From IMG/VR virus record IMGVR_UViG_3300009109_000006, positions 1-58,417 of that record: a DNA stretch of 58,417 bases, one strand, 5' to 3'. The notes below the pieces were generated by a model that ran no database searches, was not told the origin of the DNA, and saw only the letters and a program-made list of their open reading frames with translations. The number at the start of each line of letters is the position of its first letter. The first letter of the stretch is position 1. Source of the DNA: a virus. Positions 2,963 through 39,359 of this stretch are shown here, in pieces. The position numbers and the translations under genes were made by a program.

Positions 2963-2974
2963 AGTGAGGGCGAA

Positions 2975-4524: not shown

Positions 4525-4525
4525 G

Positions 4526-4867: not shown

Positions 4868-4925
4868 ATCATCACTCCTTTCAGGTCCGAACATTGAAGG
4901 CTGTTCGATGAGCCTGTAGGTCAGT

Positions 4926-4984
4926 GAGAGAGCAGTGCCAGGAGGACACACACAAGAACGGGACCACTTGGTCACTGCTCTCTC
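4926..4984 (-). repeat. Long hairpin downstream of the tRNA-like domain
   Basis: A perfect 12-bp inverted repeat (GAGAGAGCAGTG at 4926-4937 against 4973-4984) enclosing 35 bases. It begins four bases after the tRNA-like 3' end. No U-run follows, so a processing or 3'-protection element is as likely as a terminator. Confidence 0.6.
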
Positions 4985-4987
4985 TTG

Positions 4988-5769: not shown

Positions 5770-5775
5770 TCACCC

Positions 5776-5804
5776 ATTCTAGCACACTCTGTCATGGGTA
5801 TCAA
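5776..5804 (-). promoter_or_regulatory. Sigma70-type promoter for the structured RNA
   Basis: On minus: -35 TTGATA (5804-5799), 17-bp spacer, -10 TAGAAT (5781-5776). Each hexamer differs from consensus by one base. The predicted start near 5769 places the first hairpin at the very 5' end of the transcript. Confidence 0.7.
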
Positions 5805-21417: not shown

Positions 21418-22377
21418 CTAGGCGACGGCGTTGCTGAAGAAGTACCCCAGGTCGGCGCTGATGACCTTGTTGTCCCAGGCCATCTGGCTCTCAATCCGGT
21501 CACACCGGAGTTCCGGCATACGGAACCGGGAGATGCCCACGGTCTGGCCCAAGCCGTCCGACACGCCCCGCCACTCAAAGGTGTAGCCAGCGGTGGGGGT
21601 GAGGATGCCGGGGTTGGGTGCGACGTAGCAGAGCAAGGCGTTCTTCCCGGCCACGCTGGTCATACTGACCGAAGCGCCCTCAGCGGCGGTGTTCTTGACC
21701 GCACGGGACACCAGCACACGATCCAGGCCAAGCAGCCGGGCAATCGTGTCGGTGTCCACCGTGTTGGACGAGGTGTACTTCACCCGGTCAATGATGTCCG
21801 GGTGGTTCCGCAACTGGCGGTAGGCGTCGTAGCCCAGCACCAGAGTGTTGGGCAGCATCCCGGTAGAGGCAAGGATGGTGGCCTTACCGGCCTCCACATC
21901 CTCAATCGGGTCGCTGGAGGCGTAGGACGACCACTTGGTGAAGTCTGTTCCACCGGTCTTGTCGGTGGTCCACACGCTGGTGGTGAAGAAGTCGGTGGTC
22001 CACTGGATCTCCCGGCGAAGGAGCATCCGCTGAGTGATGAACTCAGTGGCGTCCCGGTCGGGACTCAGGGGAGCGTCAGCGTTGGCACGAGTCTGATCGT
22101 CCACATCCTTGTGGAAAGCGTAGACATCAGCGTTGTAGGTAGCAGTGCTGAGTGTGTACCCGCTACCGGCCGACGGCGAAGCCGGGGCACGAACAGCGGC
22201 CTCGTCACGGAACCAGTCACCCTTGGTGTAGACGAAGTACTTGTCGCTCTGCTTCTCTACCGGGATCGACCGGAAGACACGGTTAGCAACGAAGTTATTT
22301 TCGCTTTGAAGGAAAGCGAGGCTAATGTTCGTGAGAATCGCATCAACATGAACATCTGAGGTAGTTGGCTGAGGCAT
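21418..22377 (-). CDS. Major capsid protein
   Basis: 319 residues. VDAILTNISLAFLQSENNFVANRVFRSIPVEKQSDKYFVY and the later DVDDQTRANADAP..., WTTDFF, SDPIEDVE.. pattern match HK97-fold capsid proteins of actinophages. It lies between the decoration and connector genes, in standard order after scaffold. Confidence 0.88.
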   Translation of the reverse strand: MPQPTTSDVHVDAILTNISLAFLQSENNFVANRVFRSIPVEKQSDKYFVYTKGDWFRDEAAVRAPASPSAGSGYTLSTATYNADVYAFHKDVDDQTRANADAPLSPDRDATEFITQRMLLRREIQWTTDFFTTSVWTTDKTGGTDFTKWSSYASSDPIEDVEAGKATILASTGMLPNTLVLGYDAYRQLRNHPDIIDRVKYTSSNTVDTDTIARLLGLDRVLVSRAVKNTAAEGASVSMTSVAGKNALLCYVAPNPGILTPTAGYTFEWRGVSDGLGQTVGISRFRMPELRCDRIESQMAWDNKVISADLGYFFSNAVA

Positions 22378-22779: not shown

Positions 22780-23589
22780 TTAGCGAGCCTCCTTCAAGTA
22801 GGCGTCGTAGAGAGTCGGGTCTTCGCTGACCGCCTTGGCGATGGCGGCTTCACGGGTGAGCGTGGCGTCCTCAGCCTGGTACTGCTTGGCAGCCTGTTCA
22901 ATGCGCCCCATGCCGGAGTCGGCATCGAACGAGGGGAGAGCGCCAATCTCGTTGAAGGCAGCACCCTGCTTGATGACCTCGTTGGCAGCATCCAGAACCT
23001 GAGTGAGAGTTGCGTAGTGCTCCTCGTCCATGCTTTCGGCAGCCGCCTTCAGGACAGGGCCAAAGTCTTCGGCGCTAACCGACAAGCGGTCGTAGCCAGC
23101 GGCCTTAGCGACAAACTCTCGCTCCAGACGGTGGTCCCGTTCGGCCTTGGCAATCGCCTCGGCGGCAACGGCTCGGTCTTCGGCAGCCTTGACGAGTTCA
23201 ACAACGGCGGGGTCAGCCGACTTCAGGATGCTTTCTTCCGTCTGAGCATCACGCTGGGCCAGTTCGTCAACCTTGGCCAGCAACTCGTTGTTGGTGGTTT
23301 CAAGCGTGTCGATGTAGTCCAACATGGCAGCGATCTCATCGGACTGCTTGCTCATGTCTTCTTCCTCGTCATACTCGTCCGTAACGGCGTCGTCACGACC
23401 AGGGTTCTTGGGATGACCCTTATCCACAGGATCATCAGTAGCCTCAGATTCGGCATCCAAGGTGTCGGCTTCTGCCATTGGTGTGTCTCCTTTGTAGAGA
23501 ACGACTTTGCTGAGTTGATTGGCGGGGCGGGTAACGAGACTGATCTCGTCAAACTCCATGTCCGTCAATCTATTCCCGGTGGAAGGCAT
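22780..23589 (-). CDS. Scaffold protein with XkdF-like N-terminal tail; two possible starts
   Basis: 269 residues if begun at 23589; 232 if begun at ATG 23478. The first ~37 residues (EFDEISLVTRPANQLSKVV) look like the C-terminal tail of XkdF-type proteases; the rest is an acidic segment and long helices with coiled coil, as in scaffolds. A strong AAAGGAG lies inside the coding sequence just before ATG 23478, while the outer start has no ribosome site. A short start, or two forms, is therefore likely. Confidence 0.8.
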   Translation of the reverse strand: MPSTGNRLTDMEFDEISLVTRPANQLSKVVLYKGDTPMAEADTLDAESEATDDPVDKGHPKNPGRDDAVTDEYDEEEDMSKQSDEIAAMLDYIDTLETTNNELLAKVDELAQRDAQTEESILKSADPAVVELVKAAEDRAVAAEAIAKAERDHRLEREFVAKAAGYDRLSVSAEDFGPVLKAAAESMDEEHYATLTQVLDAANEVIKQGAAFNEIGALPSFDADSGMGRIEQAAKQYQAEDATLTREAAIAKAVSEDPTLYDAYLKEAR

Positions 23590-23689: not shown

Positions 23690-25228
23690 TTAGTTTGTTG
23701 AAACTGGAGTGCCGCTGGCTACTGCCTCCACAAACATCTTCAAGGCACTGTCGTTCTTGGCTGCACTCGGAGTGATGTAGTAGACCGCCCCACTCTTTTG
23801 GCGCTTGCCGACCTCAGTGGGGTCAAGGAATGCACCGTCCGCATAGGAGTAATAGAGGTTGTCGTCTTTGCGACGGTACTCAACGAACTCCCCCAAATCC
23901 CAAAATGCCTGCTGGTTGGTGGAGCGAGACAAATCGGCTGCCTCTTTGTGCGAGTTCACAACGGCTGACACATCCAAAAAAACCCACTCTTGACCACCGC
24001 GCTCGCCCTTCCAAGCCCCTACATGGGCATTGGGGGTGCTCAAAGCGCCCTGGTTCTTGGCAATGTACTCTCTGACCTTCTGCGGCCCAGACCTCGCCCA
24101 CTCATCTAGAGAGAACTGGGCTTCAAGTTCTTCAAAGGTGGCTACTGCATTGCCGGAGCGGCGAAACCTGCCACGCTTTTGGTCAAACGTGAACCCGCCA
24201 TTTGCTGAGGCAAGTGCTGCGAGGTGCGACGCCCCGCCATACATTGACGCTGGAAGGTCGCCGGAGATGGTGTGCGCGGCACCGGCTGTGGTGAACCGCC
24301 CCAACTCGTCGTGGTACGGGTTGAACTTGCGGAGCAACGCAGCCTTCCTGGCAAGCCAGTCTGTCTGGCAACCAACACAGTGTGGCTGCGCCTTGCCCAC
24401 CTTGGCTTGAATGCCCATCTTGTTGGCGTAATCATTAGCGTCACGAAGCACCTCCAAAATGGGGATGCCCACTCGCACCACTTTCATGGTCAGGCCACCC
24501 AGTTTCCCGTCGTCGCTAGCGTCCATGCCCACCACTGTGGCCCAGCGGTGGTGGCCGTCAATGATATAGCCGTCTCTGCTGATGAACACCTCGCCAACGT
24601 CCAGATCAAACTTGCCTTCTTTAGCAGCCTGCAACATCCCGGCCACCTTGGCTCCCACCAACTCTGACTGGCTGGCTTTCAGGTGGGCCGCCTTGACGGT
24701 TTCACGAGTGACCTTGACCCCGCGCTTCTTCAAGTCTTTTACATATGGCTCGGCCAGATCGACCTCCCCACGCTTGTTACGCGGCATCTTGTCGGCTACT
24801 GAGTCTTTGATGGGGTCGCCCTTCAACTGGGGCATCTTGATGCGCGGAATCCCCTTGTGCTCAGCGCAGAACACGTTGGTGCCCGGCACCGACACACGGC
24901 ACAAGTCGTATGTCTTAGCCTTGTCGCCCCTTTCGCTGGCCTCTCTGACTACGTTGCGGAGTTCCACAAGCAGTGTGGACACTTGCTCCACCGACTCCAG
25001 TTCAACATGCTTGCCATCAGCCAGGTGACGAATCGCCTCATTGACATCAGAGGTCTTGATTGGGTTGCGCTTACTACCAGGCTTATCAGCGCCTGCGCTG
25101 CGCCCCGTTTTGTTGGCACCCTCGGCCCCCGTAGTGTTTCCATCAGCCGTAGTGAACCGGCCGATGTCGTCGTGATAAGGGTTGAACTTCCTTAGGTGCG
25201 CTGCTTTACGAACAAGCCACTGCGTCAT
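23690..25228 (-). CDS. Effector-array protein 1: two junction motifs, ParB-like domain plus unknown domain
   Basis: 512 residues. Junction motif KFNPYHDDIGRFTTA starts at K14 and KFNPYHDELGRFTTA at K301. Between them lies a ParB/sulfiredoxin-like domain with FISRDGYIIDGHHRWA (about 215-232). The second module begins GGFTFDQKRGRF and later has HVGAWKGE..GQEWVFLDVSAVV, a pattern I have met in phage proteins without known function. Each motif follows a short basic stretch (LVRKAAHLRK, LARKAALLRK). Presumably a head-associated protein cut at the motifs; this is inference. Confidence 0.75.
   Translation of the reverse strand: MTQWLVRKAAHLRKFNPYHDDIGRFTTADGNTTGAEGANKTGRSAGADKPGSKRNPIKTSDVNEAIRHLADGKHVELESVEQVSTLLVELRNVVREASERGDKAKTYDLCRVSVPGTNVFCAEHKGIPRIKMPQLKGDPIKDSVADKMPRNKRGEVDLAEPYVKDLKKRGVKVTRETVKAAHLKASQSELVGAKVAGMLQAAKEGKFDLDVGEVFISRDGYIIDGHHRWATVVGMDASDDGKLGGLTMKVVRVGIPILEVLRDANDYANKMGIQAKVGKAQPHCVGCQTDWLARKAALLRKFNPYHDELGRFTTAGAAHTISGDLPASMYGGASHLAALASANGGFTFDQKRGRFRRSGNAVATFEELEAQFSLDEWARSGPQKVREYIAKNQGALSTPNAHVGAWKGERGGQEWVFLDVSAVVNSHKEAADLSRSTNQQAFWDLGEFVEYRRKDDNLYYSYADGAFLDPTEVGKRQKSGAVYYITPSAAKNDSALKMFVEAVASGTPVSTN
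24286..24328 (-). repeat. Junction-motif coding repeat
   Basis: DNA encoding KFNPYHDELGRFTTA within effector-array protein 1. The first 25-30 bases after the Lys codon are nearly identical to the other copies in the window (listed in the findings). Confidence 0.85.
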
Positions 25229-25230: not shown

Positions 25231-26862
25231 CTACAGAAACTCCACAATGTCTCTGTCAGCGATCTCCGAATAGTCCAAGCCGCGCTCGTCTGCAATCTGC
25301 TGCCACAAGTCGTCAATGGTTCGGACACTGCTGCGGTCATAACGAGAGGTTCCTTCAGGTGCAGCGATCTCATCGTAGAACCTGTCCACCAACTGGCTCG
25401 CCACAGAAGCAATCACCTTGGGGCGTGTGTCGGTCGTCTTCCCACGGTCCCTCGCTCTTTGGGCGATGGTGTGAACTAGCCCCCTCATGTCTGCTAGAGC
25501 CTTGTCGTCAAATGCGTCCCAGGCGTCCAGCGAAGCGTCGGGATCGTCCAGCCCTTGCTTGAGATACTCCTTGTTGAGCGCCCGCACTTTTCTTATCACT
25601 CTGGCGTGATTCTCGGGCACGCGTGTCACAAGGCCCATTAGCCTCGGTGCCCCAGCATTGGTGCTAGTGCGCTCCATCCCGCTAGGGCCACCGTCTCTGG
25701 TGCCACTGCCACCCCCACGACCACCGCTGCCCTCAAACCCCGCAGTAGTCACAGCACTGTTGGCAGTCGTAAACCGCCCAAGTTCATCATGGTACGGGTT
25801 GAACTTGGCTAGCGCAGCGGAGGCCAATGCGCGGCGCTCGCGCTCTTTTCTCTCAAACCTCTCAACCATTCGCTTGCGCCCTTCACGCTCCTGGTCTTCT
25901 CTTTGAGCACGCGTGATTCCTGCGCTAACCGCCACTTCTCTCACCTGCCTTACTGTCACTTTCTCTCCCGTTTTGAGCGAAATATTGTTGGCGATGCGCC
26001 TGTAGTCGCGAGAGCCATACCTTTTGTGACCAGCAAACCTGTCGTCGGTTCTAATGGCGTCTTCAATCGTCGCTCGCAGTTCCTCCTCTGAGCGTGGCTT
26101 GCTCCCCCCAAAGCGAGGGTGGCTCTCAGCAGCCCCCGCACTTCCCTCGGCTGTAGCGAAGCGCCCTAGTTCGTCGTGATAGGGGTTGAACTTGGCGAGG
26201 AAAGCGTTGGCCAGCGTGCGCCGCTTCCGCTTCCGCTTCTCCCATTCTGTGCTGTCCACATGCACTTCAGATGGCGTCGGCTGCCCTTTCTTGAAGCGTT
26301 CGATCTGGGCAAGCCGCTTTTTGGCCTCAGCCTCAGTGTCGTACTCCCCCATGAGCCTCCCGCTTTCTGAGTACACACACCAGCGGCCATTCGGCTTCTG
26401 TCGAACCACCTTGCTGATGTCACTGCTGTTCTTGCCGATGTCGGTGTAGCCGCCGTCTGGAAGGTCGATGCGCTGACGCCTGCCAGTGCCATGGACTGAG
26501 AAGCCCACATACCCACCCTTCTTGACCTGATCCCACACACGCCCATCATTCACCCTGAACCCGATCCACCATCCGGTGGGGACGGAGCCCGGCCTGATGC
26601 CAAGAGCATCCTGCTTCTCTTTGGTGAGCACGATGGATTCCACCAGAGTGGACACGCCCTTTTGAACGTGCATCTCTCCCCCATCACGCGAATGGAGAAC
26701 GTAGTGATACGCCGCCTTCTCTAGTTCGCTTTCACTGTCGATGAAGTCGTCCTGGCGATCCAGCAGCACGAGGTCGTCGGCTGTCTTGATGACATTGGCC
26801 CAGCCAAACACCAACTGCTGGTCGTCTTCAACTTTGACAATATCGGCCCTAATCGGCTTCAT
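25231..26862 (-). CDS. XkdF-like prohead protease fused to two motif-led modules
   Basis: 543 residues from ATG 26862. Residues 1-150 match the XkdF putative phage serine protease: VFGWANVI, EMHVQKG (H65) and STLVESIVLTKE (S76 region), then GWWIGFRVND and GGYVGFSVHG. A helical linker leads to junction motifs at K224 (KFNPYHDELGRFATA) and K353, the latter followed by TTAGFEGSGGRGGGS. The two added modules are basic, helical and unrecognised. XkdF enzymes mature capsids by cleaving head proteins, so the protease carries the same motif as its neighbours, the best hint that the motif is a processing or targeting signal. Confidence 0.82.
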   Translation of the reverse strand: MKPIRADIVKVEDDQQLVFGWANVIKTADDLVLLDRQDDFIDSESELEKAAYHYVLHSRDGGEMHVQKGVSTLVESIVLTKEKQDALGIRPGSVPTGWWIGFRVNDGRVWDQVKKGGYVGFSVHGTGRRQRIDLPDGGYTDIGKNSSDISKVVRQKPNGRWCVYSESGRLMGEYDTEAEAKKRLAQIERFKKGQPTPSEVHVDSTEWEKRKRKRRTLANAFLAKFNPYHDELGRFATAEGSAGAAESHPRFGGSKPRSEEELRATIEDAIRTDDRFAGHKRYGSRDYRRIANNISLKTGEKVTVRQVREVAVSAGITRAQREDQEREGRKRMVERFERKERERRALASAALAKFNPYHDELGRFTTANSAVTTAGFEGSGGRGGGSGTRDGGPSGMERTSTNAGAPRLMGLVTRVPENHARVIRKVRALNKEYLKQGLDDPDASLDAWDAFDDKALADMRGLVHTIAQRARDRGKTTDTRPKVIASVASQLVDRFYDEIAAPEGTSRYDRSSVRTIDDLWQQIADERGLDYSEIADRDIVEFL

Positions 26863-26913: not shown

Positions 26914-27165
26914 CTAGGCCCCTTTCAGGAAAGCCTCTGCTGGCACGAACCGAAATACCGGCGTGCCATTCATAATGGCTTGCAAGCGTTCAGTCGGAGC
27001 ATCGTCAGCGCCATACCACTTGCCCCTGGCCTGGATGGATGCAAGCGGGGTGGGTGGGTATACGGTTCCGTTGTTGGCGTTCACAATGTAGGCAGTGTCT
27101 TCAGGGGTGTTTGTGTCTTGCACTACATAGAGCGAGTCTCGGTGGCCCAACACTTTGATTGTCAC
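26914..27165 (-). CDS. Small hypothetical protein in the effector array
   Basis: 83 residues, no junction motif. Its start overlaps the stop of the DUF3626-like protein as ATGA. It could be an immunity or accessory factor for that protein, or an independent gene; no family recognised. Confidence 0.7.
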   Translation of the reverse strand: MTIKVLGHRDSLYVVQDTNTPEDTAYIVNANNGTVYPPTPLASIQARGKWYGADDAPTERLQAIMNGTPVFRFVPAEAFLKGA

Positions 27166-28637
27166 TTGGCCATCTCCTCAATAAACCGGTCACGAACTGA
27201 GTCGTTCAGGTTGGCTACGTCGTAGTCACCCTCCAAGTCGTAGCCAAAAGAGTCGTTGATGACAACCGGCCACTTACGCTTGCTTATCAAGTCCACTGCT
27301 GCCAACAAGGCATCGCTCGGACGGTGGTATCCACCGCCCGTGTCCAGCGAAACCACATCGGTGCTGATGTTGAGAGCGCCGTGAACCTGTAGTTCCACAT
27401 AGTTGCCTTCCTCAAACTCCTCGCGCACATACCCGCTGTAGTCCAGCCCCTCCCTGATGGCTCCCTGCACCCCCGGCAAACGGTCCAACCTTAACATCAC
27501 AGTGTCGGCAACTTCTCGCTCCCACAAAGAACTCCCCTGCTTAGTGTTCGCCATGGCTAGGAGCGCCCAGTTGGGGAGAGGAGACTCTTGCACACGGAAC
27601 GCTGTTTGCATCCCAAAAGAGTCGCCAATGGTGACGGTTGCCCTACTCATAGCGCTGGGGCTAAGCGCGAGCCGGTACTCGCCGTACTGCTCCACCTTGC
27701 CGTCCCACTCGTCATGTTCTGAGGTCCGTAAGTACCCGTACACTGGCCGCTGTGTGTTTGTGGCCCCCTGGGGAACATTCATCCCAGTCTCCTCAATAAA
27801 CATTCGCCGCGCGTTGTTGAATCCCACACTGGATGAGCCGCCCGCCTGAAACCCATTGAGGTATTCATCCCCAACCACCGCCTCTAGCAAGTCGTCACTC
27901 CCCACCCTGATTGCTGGTGTGGCGTAGGGGTCGTCAAGTTTGTGCCGGACGGCTGATGCAATCTCAAGCCCTAGTTCTTCGGCGGTCGGCACAACCCCCA
28001 ACTCTTGCGCCCGATCCATGTCCACATCCACCGTTCGGCCCCCATCGTGGATGCCAGTCACTAGCCCCAAGGCCACCAGTGGGGCTGCCTCCTCTTCCCC
28101 CACGCTCGTCACATACCGCACCAGTGTCTCGGTCACCAGAGATTCATAGTCGGCGATATCCACATGAAGCGACTGTTGCACTAGTTGCTTGAAGCCAGCA
28201 GCCTGCTCCTCGGTCCACACGCCCGGCTGGTAGTCCAGGCCCGGAATGTCGGCTGGCTCGTCAAGTGTGCGTTCGGCGTCCGCTTCTCTCAGTTTGTTGT
28301 ACCACCTCTGTCGGCGGTCGATGTCTCGGATGTAGCCCTCCCAATCACGCACTTCCAGGGAGGCTTCTCCACCATCAAACAACTCACCCTGGTCGGGGTC
28401 ACGCCCCATGGCCTCAAGCGCCCTCGCTCTCAGGCCCGACTTAGGGTGGTAATGAGGGCCGCCCGCAGCCCCAGTCACATCCTTGTCTGCTGTGGTGAAC
28501 CGCCCCAACTCGTCGTGGTACGGGTTGAACTTGGAGATTGAGGACGAAAGTCCTAGAGCAGCGTAGGTGTCGTCGGTGCGCTTCGGCCAGTCTTGGTTTT
28601 TGATGGAGTCGTCGAAGTTGACTTTTGGCAGTGTCAT
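27162..28637 (-). CDS. Effector-array protein: DUF3626-like domain
   Basis: 491 residues. The N terminus starts with VNFDDSIKNQDWPKRTDDTYAALG, the second repeat type found inside the giant MuF protein, and then junction motif KFNPYHDELGRFTTA at K36. The C-terminal half has RPVYGYLRTSEHDEW, EQYGEYRLAL, TIGDSFG and YVELQVHGALNISTDV, the pattern of DUF3626. It overlaps the MuF gene stop by four bases, as if detached from its C terminus. Confidence 0.75.
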   Translation of the reverse strand: MTLPKVNFDDSIKNQDWPKRTDDTYAALGLSSSISKFNPYHDELGRFTTADKDVTGAAGGPHYHPKSGLRARALEAMGRDPDQGELFDGGEASLEVRDWEGYIRDIDRRQRWYNKLREADAERTLDEPADIPGLDYQPGVWTEEQAAGFKQLVQQSLHVDIADYESLVTETLVRYVTSVGEEEAAPLVALGLVTGIHDGGRTVDVDMDRAQELGVVPTAEELGLEIASAVRHKLDDPYATPAIRVGSDDLLEAVVGDEYLNGFQAGGSSSVGFNNARRMFIEETGMNVPQGATNTQRPVYGYLRTSEHDEWDGKVEQYGEYRLALSPSAMSRATVTIGDSFGMQTAFRVQESPLPNWALLAMANTKQGSSLWEREVADTVMLRLDRLPGVQGAIREGLDYSGYVREEFEEGNYVELQVHGALNISTDVVSLDTGGGYHRPSDALLAAVDLISKRKWPVVINDSFGYDLEGDYDVANLNDSVRDRFIEEMAK

Positions 28638-31600
28638 GTCTCCAACACCGTCCTCCCCACATTGTCCGTGTAGGCAATCGTTTGAGCCTCAAAAGGCACC
28701 GTGCCATCCACAATGACCTCACCTTCTGACAAGCACCCCCACCCTTGGCTTGCCACCCCCACAATGGCACTGACTGGCACTTCAGCCTTCACGACATAGG
28801 CAACCTCGTCTGCTTCCACCCCTCCATAACGCATAAATGGGATTGCTGCCGACAAAGACCATGACCAACTGCTAAGCGGCGATGACGCGTTGACAACCTT
28901 GCTGCCAAGTTCAGAATAAGGCGTCGAGCGGCTCTTGGGTATTTGGACCCCCCGGTAGAGAGTGACCGTTTGCTGTGGCCCTCCGACATCTTTCATCGCT
29001 TCCTGTGCAAGACGCTTAGAGGCTGCCAGATACGCCTTGTTGGCAGCACTGCTCATGTGGGCCAACGTCATCACACGAGCAACAAACTTTTCGTCAGAGG
29101 AGGCAAACAGCAAGGTGGAAGCGTTCCTCACAGCCTGAGAAGCCTTGATGGGGCGTGACATGCTATCGGCCACGCTGCCCAAGTTGTGCAGGATCGCGCT
29201 CTCCGCTATCTCCTTACCGTTTTGGTAGTCGTTGTCGCTGAGGCCGTAGAACACACGGCTGCTGATCTCCTCATCAGACCAGCCAGCCTCTTGGGCCGCT
29301 GCCAGTTGGAGTGCCATGGCACCCTCGGAATGATCTCCGGCCGTTTGCGACCAGCGGCCGTGTACTTCTTCCACCAATGCTTCCGCGGCTTCCATCCCAG
29401 TGAGCCAGTAGTCCGGCTCCCAAGCGAGGAACATCTCGTTGACGGCGGCCAGTTCGTCCGGGCGCATTTCAAAGGCAGTGTTAGCAATGCCCTCGGCCTT
29501 GACTCTTGATCTGGTGCGCGTTGACAGGCCCACAACAGCAGTGGAGTTTGAGTTACGTTCGTTCAGGTCCAACTCAACTGTATAGGTCAGTCCCGCACTG
29601 AGATCCCCAGGCTCTCGCACCCAGTCGGTGTAAGTGACGGATGAGCGCACTGCCAGCGAAGGGCCATGTGCAGCCAGCAGTTCGGCTTCCCTTTGGCCCC
29701 AGCCCAGGGCGGTGCTAAGGATTTGGCTAGCGGCCAGCCTTCCCCCGGCTTGATCCGATGACGCTGTTGCCGCCCCAGTGACATTGTTGTCGGCGGTGGT
29801 AAACCTGCCCAGTTCATCATGGTAGGGGTTGAACTTCTTGATGCCCCCAGCCTCAATCTTCCCCCCCCAATATCCCCACTCAATCAGGTCATTGCCTCCA
29901 CTGCGAATAGTGTGGGCTGGAACTTCGGCAGAAAGCACTGCCCAGTTCACTCGGGAAGACACCCACATCCCCTTCCCGCTTTCATCATCTGGCCACACTG
30001 CATCAGCGTCAAAGTATTCATATACTCGGTCCTGGCCGTGCTGCTCGGCATAAGAGCGTGAAAGCGCAACCCAATCTCCTGAGTTGATCGCAGTAGTCCC
30101 CGGCGGGACTGACCTATAAACCGTGACGAGAGCGTCTGGTCGCCCACGCGCATGGCGAATAGCACTCAGCGTTTCCTGCTGTATGGCTCGGTCGCCAAAC
30201 ATATACAGGCTAGGGCTTGTGTAAACATCGTCAGGGAACCAGCCGTCGTCGTCCAGCAAGTCGTAGAGCGGTGCGCTGTCAGCGGATGGCTTGTGCATAC
30301 CTTGGTAAAGGTCGCTGGCCACCCCAGTTACGTCTTTGTCCGCAGTCGTAAACCTCCCTAGTTCATCATGGTAGGGGTTGAACTTGGCAACATCGTCAAA
30401 AGTGTTCACTTCGTTCCCGTAGTTTGAGGACGGCAGTGGGCCACTTGGCTTATCGTTCTCTACATACATCACTGTGCCGTCTGGATTGGGCAAGTACGAC
30501 CCCACCTGCTCGACAACAACAACCCACTCAACACCCTGAGTCTGTTCTCCGGGTGCATAAGTCTTGTGGCCTCGCCCTGGCTCTAGGTAGTCCTTCCACC
30601 CGACTACCTCTGGGTCAACCCCCTTGGGCTGAAAGCGGTCAACGATCTTGAACACACCCTGGGTGATGTGCTCAATAGAACCGTCGAAGCGCCACCCCTT
30701 GTTGGGTGCCCACACTGGGTTGGGATGGACCTGTGGGGCACCGGTGTCGCCCACATAAGACTTGGCCCCAGGCTTTAGGACCACTAGCACTTCCGGGGCA
30801 CCCTTTTCCCTGTCGTTATGCGTAAACCGCATAGCCATGCTTGGGTCAGGGCTAAATGCGGTGAGTGCAGTCCCATATTTGGTGCCGATGGGTGCAGACA
30901 ACAGCGGAGAGGCACGGTCAACATCAGACATCCCACGATGGAGCAAGGGTGAGGTTTCATCAGCCCCTCCAACTGCCCTCATGGCTTCGTATGCCCTGGC
31001 TACAACGCCCCCAACTGCTTCGTCAACAGTCGTCTGGGCACCATAACTTCTCGACCAACGCCATGCGTCATCTCTTTTCTCCCCAGCCCTAAGGCGGTCT
31101 AGGGTCACAGCATCAGCCGCATCGCGTTCACGCATTGCACTGGCGTCGCCGGTAGCAATTGTCTCGCTAAGGGCATCGGTGACATGCTCAACAGACTTTG
31201 GCGGTGGCAGCCCTACGATGGCTGCTGAAGCGTGGCGCAGCCGATAGTTGCCTTCCCAGTAAACCCACTCGTTGTCAAACCGGCCAAGCGCCTCCTCGGC
31301 TGAAGCGGCCCGTGTCTCCAACTGGAGGTCACCATATTGAATGGTGTACTGGACCTCGCCGCCAGCGGACTCTTGCGTTATCGAAGCGCCTTTGCTCCTT
31401 AGCGGCGTTCTGAACAACTCACGCCCTTGAGCGCTCCAGAGTTCCTCAGAGCCAGCGACCGGCGGGAGGTTTCCCCCTGAAATCGTAACGGCATAACGAG
31501 CAGTGGTGAACCTGCCTAGTTCGTCATGGTAGGGGTTGAACTTAGTGACCACCTTGTTGCGTTCTCGGTCATACACCCATTCGTCTGCGATATACGTCTC

Positions 31601-34600
31601 GCCAGTGTTATGAAGATGCTCGGCCATGCCCGCACGCCGGTCGTCTTCACGGCGCTGCCAGTACCGGGCTTCTCTTTGCTTCAGTTCAGCGTGCTGAGCC
31701 GCGGCATTAGGGGTGCCCACTTCCTGAACAAGCCGCTGGAGGTCATTGTTTGGTGCGGTGCCCAAACGACCCAAGGCATCTCTAACTCCAATGGTCCAGT
31801 GTTGTGTTGAAAAGCGCGGCTTGCCCAAACCGATTCGGTCGTACCTTGGGATGTTGGCCCACACGTCAATCGTGGAGTCATAGGGGATTTCACGACTATG
31901 GGCAGCCACTCGGACCGTAACGTCCTGGGTCTCAGTGCCCACACTCACATACTCAGCCTCAGACACTGCTGACTTGCTGTGCCTCGGACTGAAGCCGTGG
32001 TCTTGGAAGGTGCGCTTGATCGCGTTCACAAGACCCTCTGGCGTCCCGTCAAATCCCTGTTCGGGCACTCGCTGACTGCCTGTCGTGTTGTTAGCGGCAG
32101 TCGTAAAGCGCCCTCTGTCATCGTGATATGGGTTGAACTTCACAATCGGCAACGGGAGTCCCAGCGCCTCATAGGTGTCTGGCGTGCGCTTCGGCCAGTC
32201 TTGGTTTTCATCCGTGGCATCAAGGTTGATGGTGGGGATTGCTTTCCTCAGGCTCCCGGCTGGTGCTGGCCTCCCCGCCACACCCTTAGTGATGTCACTG
32301 GCTTGAGTGTCCACCTTGGCAACGAAAGAGTCGCCGTTGACAACCACCTCACCTTCAACAATGCAACCGAAGCCCTGTGAACTCACACCAACGATGGAAC
32401 TGACTGGTATCTCTGCCCGTAATACAACTCCTTCTTGGTCGTAACCCACGGCAAACTTCCGTGCCGTGGGGCGCGACACCGACCACGACGACAGTGGTGA
32501 CGACTTACTACGGATCTTTCCCCCTGTGACAGCCTGCTCGCCGCCGCCGTAAAACTCATCACCAAATAGACTTGCGACAGTTGTATACACACCCCTGAAC
32601 AGGGTGATAGTGGGGGTGTCGCCAACTGCTTCTTTCAGGCGCTTCTGGCTCACCCGCTGGTTGGCTGCTAGCACCGCCTTGTAAGCGGCCCCCAACAACT
32701 CACTATAAATAAAGGTTTGGGCAGTCACAGTGCCTATCGCTCTTGGTGGCGCACCGACAACCGGGCCAGCGACAGCAATGCTCAAGTAAGGGCTAAGTGT
32801 GTCACCCTGCACCACCGTTCTTATGGCTGCACTAGAAGTTTCGTGGTCAAGCAGTCCCGCGGTGTTGCCCCCAGCGTTCGCGATTACCTGCTTGGCTATC
32901 TCACGACCCGCAGCCACCACATCGTTTGGAGTTTCACGAAACACCCGGTTGGAAATCTGTTCGTTGTCCCAACCCTGCATCTCTGCTGCTGCCAACTGTA
33001 TTGCAAGTGCGTGTGGATTGCCACTGGAAGTGGCAGCCCACTGGCTGTGCTGCCTGGCCACGAACTTTTCAGGAGCGTTTGATGTTGTAATAAAGCCGGT
33101 CTTTCTGTTGCCGTAAGTCCCTTGATCTAGTTCTCCGTACAACTCCGCCATGGCCTGCGTACACGCCGCCCGTTCGTCGTCGGTCATCTCATCAGCGATG
33201 GCCTTAGCGCCCCGCCGCTTGATTTCTCTACGCTCGCGCCGAGTGACAACAACCTCAACCTGCGCCCCACGCGTTTGTACGCCCCGAGTAACGGGCTCCC
33301 AACCGGAAATAAACTCAACAGCACCGGCAGGAGCGTCTCTAAGCAACGCCTTGTCAGCACCAGATAGTTTGCCCAGTGATACTTCAGCCATCGAAATGGC
33401 AACTCCCCGGTTGGCCCTCATAGCATTACCACTGGTGGTGACTGCTGCGTCCGCGGTAGTGAACCTGCCCAGTTCGTCGTGATAGGGATTGAACTTGGTA
33501 ACTGCGCTGTAGACCACTGGCGTGGGGCGGCCATTGCGCTCCACCAGTTGCAAGATGGATTCGCCATCTTTGGGGCAAGTGCCCGTGTTGGTTACAGGGG
33601 CAGCAAACCGTTGCATCAACTTGTGAACTGCTGCCGGGCGCGACTTGTTTTCTTGTGCAGCCCCCTTCCTCAACTTGCTTCGCCACTGAAGGTCGTCACG
33701 CCTATCCATGGCGTCGGGCGGTGTGTAGTCACCCCACGACCCGCCACCTTGGCGTGAGGTCCGCTGCTGGGCTTCGTACCACTGCTTGCGGGTGAACTTG
33801 TACTTGCCAAGCGGCGACAAGTAAGCGTCGTTGCCTACCTTGACCACCCGTTGCATTGGATCGGCCTGTGTAGTTGGGGTGTGGCCTCGGCTCAACCCGT
33901 ACAGAACCACTTCTCCACAATCAAAGTCAGCGACCTGAACAGCCACTGCTCTCGCACACTCTTTGCCTAGCACTACCCGCAAATCTCGTGAATAGGCAGG
34001 CAGCGACTCCAGGCTTAGTGGCCCATCATGGGTGGCAAAGCCCGCCTTTGTGACTTCAAGCCCGCTGCCAAACATCTGCTTGAACTTGACGATGCGTGGC
34101 GCTCTCGCCCGGAACAAGACTGCCATCGTGTCAGCGAACTCGGCCCCTGACATGGCAATACCGGTCACAGGGTTCAGTTCGCCACTTCCGGTAGTTTCAA
34201 CCCTGAGCGAAATCCCCAGTGCTTCGTAAGTGTCAGGTGTCCGCTTCGGCCAGTCTTGGTTTTCATCCGTGGCATCAAGGTTGATGGGCAGAATGGCTTT
34301 GTGAACCTCTCCAGCCGGAGCAGGGCCACCAAGGCTTGCACTCTTTTCAAGATCGTCGCCCATCACAATGGCATCAAACGAGTCGCCATTCACAATGACT
34401 TCGCCTTCTGAAATACAGCCGAACCCGTTGGTGCTTAGCCCCACGATAGAACTGATGGGCACCTCTGCCTCTAGGACCACCCCTTTGAGGCCAGCAAATG
34501 TTTCAGCAACAGCCCTAACCGCTGACCATGACGACAGTGGGGCCGACTCACTACGGACTTTGGTGGCCGATGGCAGCCGGTACTCAACATGGGTCGGACT

Positions 34601-36418
34601 GTGGACCACTCGCTCCTTGTCAACCATCACCCCGCGGTACAGCGTGATTGTTTTAGCATCGCCCACTACCCAAGGAAGGTCGTGGCGTGTAGCGCGCTGT
34701 TCTGCTGCCAATACAGCCTTGTTGGCTGCCGCAGCAAACCGATGCTCCACCAGAGCCATGGCCGCAATCTGTGGCGTCACCGGCTGCATCCAGTTGGACG
34801 CCATGACCAGGCTGTCCTGTGGAGGCAGGTGCCGGTTGACAACTTCTTCCTGCCCAGCGCTACTCATTAGCGCCCACGGCGTGGGGTCTTTCTCAACTTG
34901 TGACACTGCCTTATCGGCAGCGGCACGAGCCACTTCCATGCCGCCTGGGTCTAGACCACGAAACACTCGGTTGGCGATCTGCTCACTGTCCCACTCTTGC
35001 ATCTCCGCTGCGGCCAACTGGAGGGCCAGCGATTTTGAGTCGCTATCTCCTGCTGTTTTCGCCCACATATCGTGGCGTTCTGCAACAACTACTTCTGCCA
35101 GGGCCAGCGCATCATTGTTCAGAGTGTCACCCCACTGACTCGCACACACCTCTATTTCTGCGTCAGTCATAAAGCCAGCCACCCATTCGGCACCCCCATC
35201 CTTGATCTCTGCGCGGTCCTCAACTCTAAAGTTGAGCGCGACGACACCATCGTCGCCGTCATCGGACAGGCTGCCAACAGCAGTCTCCTCGCTGCCATCA
35301 AATATGATTATGTCGCCCTCGCGTGCTTCTTCAAGCATCTTTTCTTCAAGCGGGTCTAGTTCCCGACCGCTCATCTGCACGCCCAGCATGGCCATAGCAA
35401 CAACCAACTCTCTGTTGGCGGCAAAAGCGTCACCACTCACACTGCCGCCCCCACGGCCGCCCCTGCCCTCAAACCCCGCAGTAGTCACAGTATTGTCTGC
35501 GGTCGTGAACCGCCCAAGTTCATCGTGATAGGGGTTGAACTTCACAATGTGCTTGGTGATCCCTGGGAATACCAGGCCCATAGCGCACCGGCATTGTGGG
35601 TGAACGTCGGTTGGTACATCCACAGGGCCAGTGTCAGTAGCCCAAGGCTGGTGTAGCCCGACCAGCACGCCGTCCATGGGAGCACACACTGGACACGTTC
35701 GCTCGTCCTGGGCTGTGATCCAGACTCGCTGTGTATCGGCTGGGAGCAACCGTCGCTTCTCTGCCTGATCCCAGAACATCTGCTGGCCGTGGCTTCGTGC
35801 TCTGGCCACTTCGGTGCGCGCAACCATCTTGGCCCTATACGACAAGAGCCGGTTGGCATAGCCGTTAGACAACTTGGCTGCCTGGCTTGGCGCTTGCCCT
35901 TGGTTCAGCAGGTTTTGCTCATACCTTTGGACCGCCACAGCGTGCTGTGGAAGTAGCCCGACATTGCGGCGAATCTGGCGCACCAGTTCATCCCGGTGCA
36001 TCCCTGTGACAATGGCTTCTTCAACTGTGTCTGCGAGAGTACGCATCGTGTTTGACTGGACATCTACAAGAGTTCGGTTTGCCAAATCTCGTGCCACAGT
36101 GATGACTGATGGCTGAGTGACATCCCAAGCCGTCTCAAACCCGACTTCTTTGGCAGTGATGGAGCCAGCGCCCTTCACGGCTTGCTGTACCAGCCGGGCG
36201 ATCTCGTCCGTATTCATGGACAACTGTTCGATACGAGCAGGCAAATCGTCGGGCACGATTTGGCCCTGCTGGAGTTGGCGCATCATGGTGGGCAAATCTC
36301 CGGTGCTGGAGAACTGCTTGATCGCGTCAAAGAAGGCGCGCCGCACCTTCCGCTCCATAGTGTCGGAGTACGCCGACAGTGCCTGGAGGAGTGCGGCCCC
36401 ACTAAAGCGCCGGGGCAT
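28634..36418 (-). CDS. Giant MuF-type minor head protein with six motif-separated effector modules
   Basis: 2,594 residues. Residues 1-292 are a MuF/SPP1 gp7-like head protein (RTEVARARSHGQQMF, WITAQDERTCPVCAPMDG, HPQCRC). Junction motifs follow at K293, K975, K1427, K1626, K2012 and K2195. Module 2 ends in an ADP-ribosyltransferase: R595 in LYRG, LSSWS 628-632, EGE 671-673. Module 3 repeats this: R1275, LSSWS from 1309, EGE 1355-1357. The last module too: R2489, LSSWS from 2515, EGE 2565-2567. The module from 1626 is a divergent ART-like domain (LLHRGM, TALTAFSPDP); that from 2012 has VTVYRSVPPG...GDWVALSRSYA, also ART-like. Bacterial MuF proteins are known toxin carriers; five enzyme-like modules in one chain is extraordinary. 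Confidence 0.85.
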   Translation of the reverse strand: MPRRFSGAALLQALSAYSDTMERKVRRAFFDAIKQFSSTGDLPTMMRQLQQGQIVPDDLPARIEQLSMNTDEIARLVQQAVKGAGSITAKEVGFETAWDVTQPSVITVARDLANRTLVDVQSNTMRTLADTVEEAIVTGMHRDELVRQIRRNVGLLPQHAVAVQRYEQNLLNQGQAPSQAAKLSNGYANRLLSYRAKMVARTEVARARSHGQQMFWDQAEKRRLLPADTQRVWITAQDERTCPVCAPMDGVLVGLHQPWATDTGPVDVPTDVHPQCRCAMGLVFPGITKHIVKFNPYHDELGRFTTADNTVTTAGFEGRGGRGGGSVSGDAFAANRELVVAMAMLGVQMSGRELDPLEEKMLEEAREGDIIIFDGSEETAVGSLSDDGDDGVVALNFRVEDRAEIKDGGAEWVAGFMTDAEIEVCASQWGDTLNNDALALAEVVVAERHDMWAKTAGDSDSKSLALQLAAAEMQEWDSEQIANRVFRGLDPGGMEVARAAADKAVSQVEKDPTPWALMSSAGQEEVVNRHLPPQDSLVMASNWMQPVTPQIAAMALVEHRFAAAANKAVLAAEQRATRHDLPWVVGDAKTITLYRGVMVDKERVVHSPTHVEYRLPSATKVRSESAPLSSWSAVRAVAETFAGLKGVVLEAEVPISSIVGLSTNGFGCISEGEVIVNGDSFDAIVMGDDLEKSASLGGPAPAGEVHKAILPINLDATDENQDWPKRTPDTYEALGISLRVETTGSGELNPVTGIAMSGAEFADTMAVLFRARAPRIVKFKQMFGSGLEVTKAGFATHDGPLSLESLPAYSRDLRVVLGKECARAVAVQVADFDCGEVVLYGLSRGHTPTTQADPMQRVVKVGNDAYLSPLGKYKFTRKQWYEAQQRTSRQGGGSWGDYTPPDAMDRRDDLQWRSKLRKGAAQENKSRPAAVHKLMQRFAAPVTNTGTCPKDGESILQLVERNGRPTPVVYSAVTKFNPYHDELGRFTTADAAVTTSGNAMRANRGVAISMAEVSLGKLSGADKALLRDAPAGAVEFISGWEPVTRGVQTRGAQVEVVVTRRERREIKRRGAKAIADEMTDDERAACTQAMAELYGELDQGTYGNRKTGFITTSNAPEKFVARQHSQWAATSSGNPHALAIQLAAAEMQGWDNEQISNRVFRETPNDVVAAGREIAKQVIANAGGNTAGLLDHETSSAAIRTVVQGDTLSPYLSIAVAGPVVGAPPRAIGTVTAQTFIYSELLGAAYKAVLAANQRVSQKRLKEAVGDTPTITLFRGVYTTVASLFGDEFYGGGEQAVTGGKIRSKSSPLSSWSVSRPTARKFAVGYDQEGVVLRAEIPVSSIVGVSSQGFGCIVEGEVVVNGDSFVAKVDTQASDITKGVAGRPAPAGSLRKAIPTINLDATDENQDWPKRTPDTYEALGLPLPIVKFNPYHDDRGRFTTAANNTTGSQRVPEQGFDGTPEGLVNAIKRTFQDHGFSPRHSKSAVSEAEYVSVGTETQDVTVRVAAHSREIPYDSTIDVWANIPRYDRIGLGKPRFSTQHWTIGVRDALGRLGTAPNNDLQRLVQEVGTPNAAAQHAELKQREARYWQRREDDRRAGMAEHLHNTGETYIADEWVYDRERNKVVTKFNPYHDELGRFTTARYAVTISGGNLPPVAGSEELWSAQGRELFRTPLRSKGASITQESAGGEVQYTIQYGDLQLETRAASAEEALGRFDNEWVYWEGNYRLRHASAAIVGLPPPKSVEHVTDALSETIATGDASAMRERDAADAVTLDRLRAGEKRDDAWRWSRSYGAQTTVDEAVGGVVARAYEAMRAVGGADETSPLLHRGMSDVDRASPLLSAPIGTKYGTALTAFSPDPSMAMRFTHNDREKGAPEVLVVLKPGAKSYVGDTGAPQVHPNPVWAPNKGWRFDGSIEHITQGVFKIVDRFQPKGVDPEVVGWKDYLEPGRGHKTYAPGEQTQGVEWVVVVEQVGSYLPNPDGTVMYVENDKPSGPLPSSNYGNEVNTFDDVAKFNPYHDELGRFTTADKDVTGVASDLYQGMHKPSADSAPLYDLLDDDGWFPDDVYTSPSLYMFGDRAIQQETLSAIRHARGRPDALVTVYRSVPPGTTAINSGDWVALSRSYAEQHGQDRVYEYFDADAVWPDDESGKGMWVSSRVNWAVLSAEVPAHTIRSGGNDLIEWGYWGGKIEAGGIKKFNPYHDELGRFTTADNNVTGAATASSDQAGGRLAASQILSTALGWGQREAELLAAHGPSLAVRSSVTYTDWVREPGDLSAGLTYTVELDLNERNSNSTAVVGLSTRTRSRVKAEGIANTAFEMRPDELAAVNEMFLAWEPDYWLTGMEAAEALVEEVHGRWSQTAGDHSEGAMALQLAAAQEAGWSDEEISSRVFYGLSDNDYQNGKEIAESAILHNLGSVADSMSRPIKASQAVRNASTLLFASSDEKFVARVMTLAHMSSAANKAYLAASKRLAQEAMKDVGGPQQTVTLYRGVQIPKSRSTPYSELGSKVVNASSPLSSWSWSLSAAIPFMRYGGVEADEVAYVVKAEVPVSAIVGVASQGWGCLSEGEVIVDGTVPFEAQTIAYTDNVGRTVLET
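29794..29836 (-). repeat. Junction-motif coding repeat (K2195)
   Basis: Encodes KFNPYHDELGRFTTADNNVTG, the junction before the last ADP-ribosyltransferase module of the giant MuF protein. Confidence 0.85.
30343..30385 (-). repeat. Junction-motif coding repeat (K2012)
   Basis: Encodes KFNPYHDELGRFTTADKDVTG before the YRSVP/GDWV module; the six residues after the motif match the DUF3626-like protein (TTADKDVTG). Confidence 0.85.
31501..31543 (-). repeat. Junction-motif coding repeat (K1626)
   Basis: Encodes KFNPYHDELGRFTTARYAVT before the divergent ART-like module. Confidence 0.85.
32098..32140 (-). repeat. Junction-motif coding repeat (K1427)
   Basis: Encodes KFNPYHDDRGRFTTAANNTTG before a ~190-residue module of unknown function. 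Confidence 0.85.
33454..33496 (-). repeat. Junction-motif coding repeat (K975)
   Basis: Encodes KFNPYHDELGRFTTADAAVTT before the second ADP-ribosyltransferase module. Confidence 0.85.
35500..35542 (-). repeat. Junction-motif coding repeat (K293)
   Basis: Encodes KFNPYHDELGRFTTADNTVTT directly after the MuF domain, followed by GFEGRGGRGGGS. This is the MuF/effector boundary. Confidence 0.85.
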
Positions 36419-36420: not shown

Positions 36421-37878
36421 CTACTCCTTAGTGTTGGGTGTGGGCTGCCGCTGGGCAACAGGCTCCGGTTGCTTTTCGGCAGAGCGGGCGTTGCCCTGCC
36501 CTGGCACACTTTGACCCGGAACCTGGCCTGTGCGCTGTTGACGAGCAGGGAGGCTTGCCACTTGCCGGAGGTAGTTCTCCAGTTCGTCGTCTGGGAACAG
36601 GGGCACTCCCGCCCCTGCCAGCACCTGAATGTAGTTGCCCAACTCCCCCAGCGGCGGCGTCTCAATGTCCCCGTACTCCAGCGTAGGGAGCCGGGTCATG
36701 TCGAACCCGTTCAACTTGAACAGGCGGGGAATGGCGTACTCGTTGAAGACGGTCCTGATGATCTCCAGCCACGTTCTGAGTGATGTGGCAAAGAGGTCGG
36801 TCTTGTCTACTGAAAGCGCAAAACTGCCGTGCTGCTGCTGCCCCAGCAGAATGAAGTCGGCCAGGACAGAGGTGGCAATGCGCTGGTCGTACCGCTGAAT
36901 CACTGTGTTGGTGTCAAACTCTCTGGACCCGCCAGACGAAAGCAACTCCAGCCGGTACAACTGGTGCCCGTTCTCGTCATAGATCGCCGGGAGAATCACG
37001 CCTTCTTGCTGATCCCGGCGAATGTTGGACACCATGTCTTGGTAGTCGGTGAACACCGACTTTTGCCCATCCGTAGCGTCACTCCGCATGATCTGAGGGT
37101 CAACGTACATAACTGGGAACCCAGCCAGATCACGTTCGATCCCAATGGCCTCGATTTCTTCAATCCGCTTCTTGAAGTAGTACGGCCGGTACGCAGTCCT
37201 AAGGATGGACCTGCCCTCTGGGTTGTTCTTGTTGGTGGAGGTGCGGAATAGAAGCGCCTTCTCCATGGGGATGTCCACAAGGTGATAGTGCGGGGGAGGC
37301 GACTGGCGCATCCCCAAAATGCCACCCTTCTCATCGAAAATCCACTCAATGCGGGTTTCCTGAGCACGGACGGGAATCTTGCGCCAGCCCACCCGACCAT
37401 CATCAAACCGACTGCGCTTGCTGGAGTCTTCTTGACTGGGGCCGTTACGGTGCTTGTAGACAATCTCGTGGTATGACCACCCAAACACCAGCATGGACAG
37501 AACCTCTGAGATGAGGTCTTCCCAAGAGTGGCTCATGTCGTGCATACACGAATCGACAAAAACAGCGGCCATCTCGTCGTCATGCTTCTTGGACTTGGAC
37601 TGCACTCGCCACGCCACCTGGCGCACCAGCCGGTCAATGGCGAACAGAATGGCTCCTACCACGGGGTCGTTGTCCCGCATCTCGCGGTAGACCTCGTTGG
37701 CTCTAAACCCGGCGAGTTGGGGGAGGAACTCCTCGGTGACAAAGCCTGCCGAGCGGCGAAGCCCTGTGAGGCCCGTTTCATCAAACGGGTCGAACTTTAG
37801 ATCAAACTCTTTGCCGTCGTACCCAGACCGTGCTGGGCCAGTGCCACCATCGGCACCGGTAGTGTTTGGGCTAGGCAC
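36421..37878 (-). CDS. Portal protein
   Basis: 485 residues. NDPVVGAILFAIDRLVRQVAWRV, the central FGWSYHEIVYKHR and later ILRTAYRPYYFKKRIEEIEAIGIERDLAGFP are signatures of the Mu gp29/DUF935-like portals. It forms the dodecameric vertex through which DNA is packaged and ejected. It precedes the MuF gene with a two-base gap. Confidence 0.9.
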   Translation of the reverse strand: MPSPNTTGADGGTGPARSGYDGKEFDLKFDPFDETGLTGLRRSAGFVTEEFLPQLAGFRANEVYREMRDNDPVVGAILFAIDRLVRQVAWRVQSKSKKHDDEMAAVFVDSCMHDMSHSWEDLISEVLSMLVFGWSYHEIVYKHRNGPSQEDSSKRSRFDDGRVGWRKIPVRAQETRIEWIFDEKGGILGMRQSPPPHYHLVDIPMEKALLFRTSTNKNNPEGRSILRTAYRPYYFKKRIEEIEAIGIERDLAGFPVMYVDPQIMRSDATDGQKSVFTDYQDMVSNIRRDQQEGVILPAIYDENGHQLYRLELLSSGGSREFDTNTVIQRYDQRIATSVLADFILLGQQQHGSFALSVDKTDLFATSLRTWLEIIRTVFNEYAIPRLFKLNGFDMTRLPTLEYGDIETPPLGELGNYIQVLAGAGVPLFPDDELENYLRQVASLPARQQRTGQVPGQSVPGQGNARSAEKQPEPVAQRQPTPNTKE

Positions 37879-37978: not shown

Positions 37979-38305
37979 TCAGACCTTCCAGAACTCTTTG
38001 GCCTTGACCTCGCCGTCGTCGTCTGATCGGAGAACCCTCATCGGTTCGCTCGGATGGCGCGGACCTGGGCGACGGTGGTGAACTGTCGCGGGGGGATGCG
38101 CTGGTCGTTCATGCGGTGATCCATGACGGCGCGGACCGTCGCCCACGTCACTCGGCAGATCAACTCCTCCACGGCCGCCGCTTCCCTCAAAACCAGCCGT
38201 GGTGACCGCATTCCGGGCGGTTGTAAACCTCCCACGCTCATCGTGATAGGGGTTGAACTTGGCAACGTGTTCGGCTCGCCGCTTCAACCAGTCAAACTTT
38301 TTCAC
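37979..38305 (-). CDS. Orphan junction-motif protein, reading frame probably broken
   Basis: A 108-codon frame from GTG 38305 (after AAGAAAAGGG). Junction motif KFNPYHDERGRFTTA lies at 38260 and down, followed by TTAGFEGSGGRGG as in the protease and MuF proteins. After GGRGG the frame turns Pro/His/Arg-rich, while another frame (38038-38185) shows strong G/C third positions and a natural sequence (WATVRAVMDHRMNDQ). The last 20 codons (MRVLRSDDDG...) start by ATGA overlap with that frame's stop at 38038. Either a frameshift or overlapping tiny genes. Confidence 0.5.
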   Translation of the reverse strand: MKKFDWLKRRAEHVAKFNPYHDERGRFTTARNAVTTAGFEGSGGRGGVDLPSDVGDGPRRHGSPHERPAHPPATVHHRRPGPRHPSEPMRVLRSDDDGEVKAKEFWKV

Positions 38306-38321
38306 TTCCACAGCCCTTTTC

Positions 38322-39359
38322 TTAGTGGTCCAAGTACACACAATACTCGGCTGATACCCCGTGCTTAGGGTGAACCATGAGAAGCCACTGCGAAGGGCGT
38401 CCCACTGCGGCCAACTGCTCCTGAGCGTATGTGTTGTGACTCTCCGTGCTGCCGTTTACCCGTGCAGTAATGGTGTTCAAGGTAACTCTTGTCGGCTGGT
38501 GCCAGTGGCCGATCAAGACCTCGTTGAACTCCTCAGGGACGCCGCCAACGGCCCAGCCCCAAGTCTTCTTGGCCAGCCCGTAAAAGGGAAACCCCCCAAA
38601 CCCGCCTCCCCTGATCTGGTCACCATGGGCTAGCAGGAAGCCGTGGTCCCCGATGCGGTCCACCGCGTACCATGCCCGCTCGTCTTTCTCCCAGGGCACA
38701 TACCAAGACAGCCGCTTCTCGCCACCCATGATCTGACGGCAGATGTTGTAGAGCATCCTGTCTGCGTTGCTCTCGCCGTTGTAATCCTTTCGGGCACGCC
38801 CGCCCAGCGAACCATGGTTGCCGATCACTCCGACGACATGAACCGACTCAAACATCGTCAGGGCACGGCGCAAGAAGTTGCACAGGATGCGTGGGCCGTC
38901 AACCGTCATCTGTTGGTAGAGCGACGAGTCGATTAGGTGCGCCTGGCCAGGGAAGATCATCTCCCCCTCTACGATGTCCCCCAGCAGGTAGACCTTCAGG
39001 GTTTTGATCGGGATGGCCTCTCGGTGCATCCCCACAATCGTTTCCAGTTTGTCGGCATAGCGTTCAATCCGCTCCTCGCAGATTTCACTGCTGTACCCCG
39101 GAGTTTGCTTGCCCAACTGCCAGTCCGACAGCACTGCCACGGCGACCTGTTCGCCCTTTTTGCGACTGTCTTTCTTTGGTGCGGCTACTGGGGGAATCGT
39201 GAGTCCTGAGGAGGCATCTCTGGCAGCCCGGTAGACGGCTTCGACCAGTTCCTCCCCCCGATCTTTTGCCTTTTGAAGTTGGCGGGATAGTCGCGCAATC
39301 GTGCTGCGTAGATCATCCACTGTGGACGCTTCATTGAGACTGTCTTGGAAGTCAGCCAC
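38322..39359 (-). CDS. Metallophosphoesterase
   Basis: 345 residues with the calcineurin-like set: DWQ in VAVLSDWQLGK, GDIVEGE, GNHGS, LAHGDQ and GHWH. The N-terminal ~80 residues form a coiled coil. This class includes SbcD/Mre11-type nucleases and phage phosphatases; substrate unknown. It lies between portal-side and lysis/terminase genes. Confidence 0.82.
   Translation of the reverse strand: MADFQDSLNEASTVDDLRSTIARLSRQLQKAKDRGEELVEAVYRAARDASSGLTIPPVAAPKKDSRKKGEQVAVAVLSDWQLGKQTPGYSSEICEERIERYADKLETIVGMHREAIPIKTLKVYLLGDIVEGEMIFPGQAHLIDSSLYQQMTVDGPRILCNFLRRALTMFESVHVVGVIGNHGSLGGRARKDYNGESNADRMLYNICRQIMGGEKRLSWYVPWEKDERAWYAVDRIGDHGFLLAHGDQIRGGGFGGFPFYGLAKKTWGWAVGGVPEEFNEVLIGHWHQPTRVTLNTITARVNGSTESHNTYAQEQLAAVGRPSQWLLMVHPKHGVSAEYCVYLDH

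Follow-up and report, generated by a model that had tools for sequence, protein, structure and literature searches.

The locus considered here raises the question of why a phage head maturation protease should carry the same short motif as its presumed substrates. It lies in a viral DNA of 58,417 nucleotides (IMG/VR record IMGVR_UViG_3300009109_000006, positions 1 to 58,417; hereafter the window), in which the open reading frame (ORF) 25231-26862, on the minus strand, encodes a protein of 543 amino acids (aa; 60.9 kDa, isoelectric point (pI) 9.0) from an ATG at 26862 to a stop codon at 25231-25233. Behind its XkdF-type protease domain this protein bears two copies of a 12-residue motif, KFNPYHDxLGRF, starting exactly at K224 and K353. 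The recurrence of this tag in other head proteins and in probable effectors suggests that it may be a phage code for loading cargo into the head and cutting it loose.

An earlier note on the window had described this ORF as an XkdF-like protease (H65, LVESIV) followed by motif copies at K224 and K353 with extra basic modules; the ORF was confirmed, with exactly the coordinates and the two motif starts given there. The Pfam family PF14550 (XkdF/Peptidase_S78_2) matches aa 7-129 with an E value of 1.5e-21 (77 bits vs a cut-off of 24), which bears out the domain, and this is the single match to the family in the whole record. When 34 diverse XkdF domains were compared, H65, S122, D35 and G116 of the window protease were found to be invariant. 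The choice of H65 was thus correct, whereas the glutamate of LVESIV varies among XkdF domains, and the serine, left unnamed in the note, is S122. On the strength of these invariant residues the active site looks intact. The fold is shared with other XkdF proteins (BFVD matches, best E value 4e-13); sequence and fold searches of the PDB with the protease gave nothing useful, neither of its two AlphaFold2 (AF2) models matching an entry. Basic helices do precede both tags (aa 192-223, pI 10.4; aa 330-352, pI 11.3), and in both models the tags are disordered at the ends of these helices. Neither of the modules that follow the tags had a significant match in Pfam.

The window has 12 copies of the pattern KFNPYHDxxGRF. 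All are in frame with the five minus-strand ORFs that contain them and fall in the interval 24.3-38.3 kb, between an exonuclease gene and the scaffold and capsid genes. They are distributed over a MuF polyvalent protein (six), the protease (two), ORF 23690-25228 (two), ORF 27162-28637 (one) and ORF 37979-38341 (one), so that the protease does bear the tag of its neighbouring probable effectors, as had been claimed for its presumed substrates. As ten residues of the pattern are fixed and the other reading frames of the window contain no copy of it, this recurrence is not due to chance.

In most tag columns the 12 copies share synonymous codons about as often as codon usage predicts; they do so more often at the first two codons, AAG-TTC, and at some Gly and Arg codons. 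The tag is therefore held mainly as protein and not just by recent DNA duplication, and a DNA-level repeat or recombination signal was rejected as the main explanation. In the homologous fusions L104 and L072 the tag is 83% identical, differing only at two free positions, against about 50% for the flanks. It is also conserved across many phage groups and in an archaeal provirus. These observations bear on the reading of the tag as a mere modular joint, a linker without a reader that was spread by recombination or gene fusion. Gene fusion clearly took place, and some copies have similar flanks (TTAGFEGSGGRGG); however, the codons have been randomised to near expectation with the protein kept, the tag outlives its flanks and its conservation reaches from many phage groups to an archaeal provirus, and we consider this reading very unlikely. 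In the provirus (Nitrososphaera provirus Pro-Nvie1, L277, 4429-6445) the tag of the portal protein lies about 50 aa before the stop codon, and a gene with a RelA/SpoT domain overlaps the end of the portal gene in another frame.

The extended consensus, derived from 128 non-redundant IMG/VR contexts, is [VIL]xKFNP[YNH]HDExGRF[TAS][TS][AG], and a stretch rich in Gly, Ala and Ser comes next. Neither the hydrophobic character of position -2 nor the E of position +7 had been imposed by the search pattern; the IMG/VR copies of the window phage (L002, L003, L012, L080 and L100) are not independent. Of 114 ORFs with complete N-termini, 60 have the first tag no more than 60 aa from the ORF opening, and most others have it at 200-600 aa. 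The 57 non-redundant regions upstream of internal tags gave Pfam matches to Phage_portal (18), Portal_Mu (2), MuF (7), XkdF (6) and S78 (2), i.e. 35 matches to head families of three kinds only: portal, MuF and maturation protease. PHROGs concurred and added portal and head-maturation-protease families. Most of the 134 non-redundant segments downstream of tags had no match; the remainder resembled ADP-ribosyltransferases, zeta toxins, DUF3626, 2H, papain-fold, RNase and restriction endonuclease toxins, GNAT, ParB and topoisomerase IB. Taken together, the head families upstream, the effector matches downstream and the N-terminal placement show the tag, as judged from these profile matches, to be a junction between a head protein and an effector-type module in many unrelated phages, and also a leader close to the N-terminus in unfused proteins of effector type.

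Maturation proteases outside the window can be tagged in the same way. Among 53 non-redundant XkdF domains, the tag follows the domain in eight and precedes it in two, a second tag containing GHPFRGNQW is present in four and neither is found in 39; as these loci were mostly fetched by means of the tag, the fractions are not population rates. The tagged proteins sit in two subclades of the XkdF tree, and within the window's own subclade the KFNPxHDxxGRF (GRF) tag of the window and L090 interchanges at the same place with the GNQW tag of L004, L007, L178 and L215. The fused modules are diverse: a zeta toxin in L152 (E value 5e-27), a long unrecognised module behind NUDIX in L072, an unrecognised module behind the tag in L235, where a 2H/Acb1-like domain stands before the protease, and modules that are ParB-like, by eye and by similarity to window ORF 23690-25228, in the four GNQW proteins just named. 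In L103, L104 and L152 the tag within the protease is preceded by the leader AK[TSN]FDEIL, as at the starts of free tagged ORFs, which indicates that a tagged gene became fused to that of the protease. Two S78 proteases, in L278 and L250, also carry the tag behind the protease; in the S78 protease of ctUhy936 there are two tags with a small module behind each. A motif specific to XkdF was rejected, since phages with an S78 protease carry the tag too, as was a tag required in the protease, given the untagged majority of XkdF proteins.

Several side observations concern these proteases. The L250 protein (2146-5790, minus strand) is a 1215-aa S78 prohead protease with an intein-like insert, recognised by eye, followed by the tag and an Ala-rich C-terminal domain; a Hint_2 match was present among the regions upstream of tags. 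In L235 and L010 a 2H phosphoesterase that weakly resembles anti-CBASS Acb1 is fused directly before the XkdF protease. Divergent XkdF domains in L023, L033, L044, L047, L070 and L105, missed or barely detected by the Pfam model, were found with an iterated profile.

The earlier note had proposed that a protease bearing the signal of its substrates might release itself, or dock with its cargo through a common site. Relatives with intact active-site residues carry the tag, and this, together with the tag on neighbouring proteins and on two S78 proteases, makes self-release of the window protease modules a reasonable prediction. Docking of protease and cargo did not hold as a general rule, because the 39 untagged XkdF proteins come mostly from tagged phages and portal and MuF proteins are tagged equally. 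The protease is better seen as one of three head proteins that would serve as carriers.

The tag is also associated with XkdF at the level of whole contigs. In contigs of at least 25 kb, with controls picked by a random 14-mer, XkdF was present in 34/50 tag-bearing contigs vs 1/30 random ones (p 4e-9), and Pfam's own XkdF model gave 32/50 vs 1/33. Enrichment of MuF was smaller (28/50 vs 4/30); S78 was found in 4/50 vs 5/33, and S49 and ClpP in none of the 50 tag contigs.

The window protein is an XkdF protease with two tag-joined C-terminal modules, and we propose that portal, MuF and protease would bring fused cargo into the procapsid, since their other half belongs there. Free cargo would enter by the tag and its leader, in the manner of T4 internal proteins. 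During maturation the protease would cut at or beside the tag, its own chain included, freeing cargo inside the head, from where it could exit with the DNA; ORF 25231-26862 would then yield pieces of about 25-27, 15 and 19-21 kDa. We give this account an about even chance of being correct. The three carriers need no extra targeting yet keep the tag, a sign of release and not just of targeting; in free cargo the tag probably has a targeting role as well. The predicted disorder of the tags, their recurrence behind proteases of two XkdF subclades and of the S78 type, and the excess of XkdF in tagged contigs also speak for this account.

Two other readings were weighed against it. The tag could be an encapsidation (docking) signal that the core or shell of the procapsid binds and that stays uncut, cargo remaining fused or being ejected as it is. 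Such a signal would account for the N-terminal tag of free cargo, the length and strictness of the motif and the recurring leader (e.g. AKTFDEIL-KFNPYHD), and in P1 an N-terminal signal of 9-30 residues is enough for DarB (PMC9024508). It leaves unexplained, however, both the strong link to XkdF and the retention of the tag between portal, MuF or protease and cargo, where a release site would explain why the tag outlasts its flanks, and we judge it rather unlikely. Action at a later stage, as an aid to unfolding and ejection through the portal or as a site cut in the infected cell, would suit a tag that is flexible, backed by Gly-rich linkers and needed by free and fused cargo alike; as it gives no reason for the association with XkdF, we find it improbable.

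Release by the protease must itself face several points that weigh against it. Proteases of this kind usually act on scaffold and capsid proteins, yet these have no tag, which is therefore not the general cleavage motif; 12 residues exceed the usual need of a cleavage site; and most XkdF proteins (39/53) go without. AF2 placed no tag in the protease active site, leaving it disordered. The cargo of the window protease has no recognised domain and could be scaffold-like instead of an effector. The XkdF enrichment may come partly from shared ancestry, the contigs being fragmentary and partly related, and is an association, not proof. Finally, GRF and GNQW tags coexist in one phage, L112. The literature was searched for an XkdF cleavage site and none was found.

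The second tag, KGDxxGHPFRGNQWT, can stand in place of the GRF tag. It forms arrays of up to five copies per ORF (L229, 3665-7954), occurs near N-termini as well and was seen in L173, L229 and others; the protein that bears it in Xanthomonas phage Rb1 is annotated as an internal head protein. A broader reading, which we put forward only tentatively, is that KFNPxHDxxGRF and GHPFRGNQWT may be two dialects of a common code for packaging and release (K-x-[ND]..H-x3-G-[RN]..[FW]-T) in tailed phages of bacteria and archaea. Any tagged module would then be loaded into the procapsid and freed by whichever protease, XkdF or S78, the phage has, and the set of injected proteins would diversify as new tagged modules are hung on portal, MuF or protease.

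The features of the window are collected in the table. In the 2594-aa ORF the MuF domain and a C-terminal ParB match are the only recognised parts, and portal and MuF are found in the gene context. Its modules 1, 2 and 6 (28637-35494, minus strand) are related, at 44% and 37% identity to module 1, and resemble ADP-ribosyltransferases by eye (YRGV, SSWS, EGE), Pfam giving no match. Around the tag of ORF 37979-38341, 98 bases of DNA have about 78% identity to tag 2 of the protease gene, and the frame then looks low in complexity; this short ORF is possibly a decayed copy.

Table: Positions of the protease, its parts, the tags and neighbouring head genes in the window (pLDDT, predicted local distance difference test)
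Feature	Position	Strand	Basis or remark
XkdF-type head maturation protease with two tags	25231-26862	-	Pfam, ORF translation
XkdF protease domain, aa 7-129	26476-26844	-	AF2 pLDDT mostly 83-97, lower near H65 and S122
Invariant protease residues	D35 26758-26760; H65 26668-26670; S122 26497-26499	-	
Small beta-beta-beta-alpha module, aa 152-191, ..RWCVYSESGRLMGEYDTEAEAKKRLAQIERFKK	26290-26409	-	Weak phrog_2859 match; AF2 pLDDT 82-92
Basic helix before tag 1, aa 204-222, KRKRKRR	26197-26253	-	
Protease tag 1, K224-F235, KFNPYHDELGRF	26158-26193	-	Disordered in AF2
Inter-tag module, aa 236-352, helical, basic	25807-26157	-	No Pfam match
Protease tag 2, K353-F364, KFNPYHDELGRF	25771-25806	-	Disordered in AF2
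C-terminal module, aa 365-543, Gly-rich linker then helices, pI 5.3	25234-25770	-	No significant Pfam match
Tag near N-terminus of ORF 23690-25228, ParB-like module behind	25154-25189	-	
Second tag of ORF 23690-25228	24293-24328	-	
N-terminal tag of ORF 27162-28637, weak DUF3626 match behind	28497-28532	-	
MuF polyvalent protein, 2594 aa, six tags	28634-36418	-	
MuF polyvalent protein, tag 6	29801-29836	-	
MuF polyvalent protein, tag 5	30350-30385	-	
MuF polyvalent protein, tag 4	31508-31543	-	
MuF polyvalent protein, tag 3	32105-32140	-	
MuF polyvalent protein, tag 2	33461-33496	-	
MuF polyvalent protein, tag 1, directly behind MuF domain	35507-35542	-	
Tag in short ORF 37979-38341, upstream of portal gene	38225-38260	-	
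Portal protein (Portal_Mu)	36421-37878	-	Pfam
Putative scaffold (phrog_80 region), no tag	22780-23589	-	
Major capsid protein E, no tag	21418-22377	-	

To our knowledge, the loading and freeing of injected phage enzymes are known for few model phages (T4, P1 and SPN3US). A single tag on portal-, MuF- and protease-fused modules and on free effectors makes this question testable in many phages. It also offers a sequence handle for injected anti-defence proteins missed by profiles, and would give a short sequence by which proteins could be loaded into phage heads.

The arrangement of the window protease recalls the herpesvirus assemblin pUL26, a serine protease with a linker that contains a self-release site and a second domain bound for the capsid interior; unlike pUL26, the window protein has a different sequence and a partner domain that is probable cargo, and its models matched no PDB structure. 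Polyvalent proteins and MuF polymorphic toxins are multidomain effectors, with MuF- and portal-effector fusions, described in a late-gene context (PMC5512222, PMC5576092); the tagged proteins resemble them in having effector modules fused to MuF or portal and in their late-gene context, and text searches of these open-access papers (Iyer 2017, Jamet 2017) found no mention of a common tag or of the maturation protease as carrier.

In phage T4 the internal proteins and Alt are diverse injected proteins that have in common only a short N-terminal signal, the capsid targeting sequence (CTS) (PMC3012670; PMC7411985), which is cut by gp21 (PMC7411985). Like the CTS, the tag is a short N-terminal signal common to diverse cargo, as its position in the first 60 aa of 60 of 114 ORFs illustrates; unlike it, the tag has another sequence, stands within chains too, in as many as six copies, and links cargo with portal, MuF and the protease itself. 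The cleavage motif of gp21 is (L/I)xE, and the tag logo has no conserved triplet of this type. The prohead protease gp245 of Salmonella phage SPN3US removes its own C-terminal propeptide, which has been suggested to direct the protease to the core (PMC7411985). The window protease likewise has a C-terminal extension on a head protease, its self-removal being shown for SPN3US and predicted here; the gp245 extension differs in measuring 64 residues, in belonging to another protease family and in having no reported tag or effector. In P1, an N-terminal signal of fewer than 30 residues sends the antirestriction protein DarB into the head (PMC9024508), although that signal, unlike the window tag, serves a single protein. 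By analogy, the proposed mechanism would have its precedents in T4 and SPN3US for cleavage and in P1 DarB for targeting.
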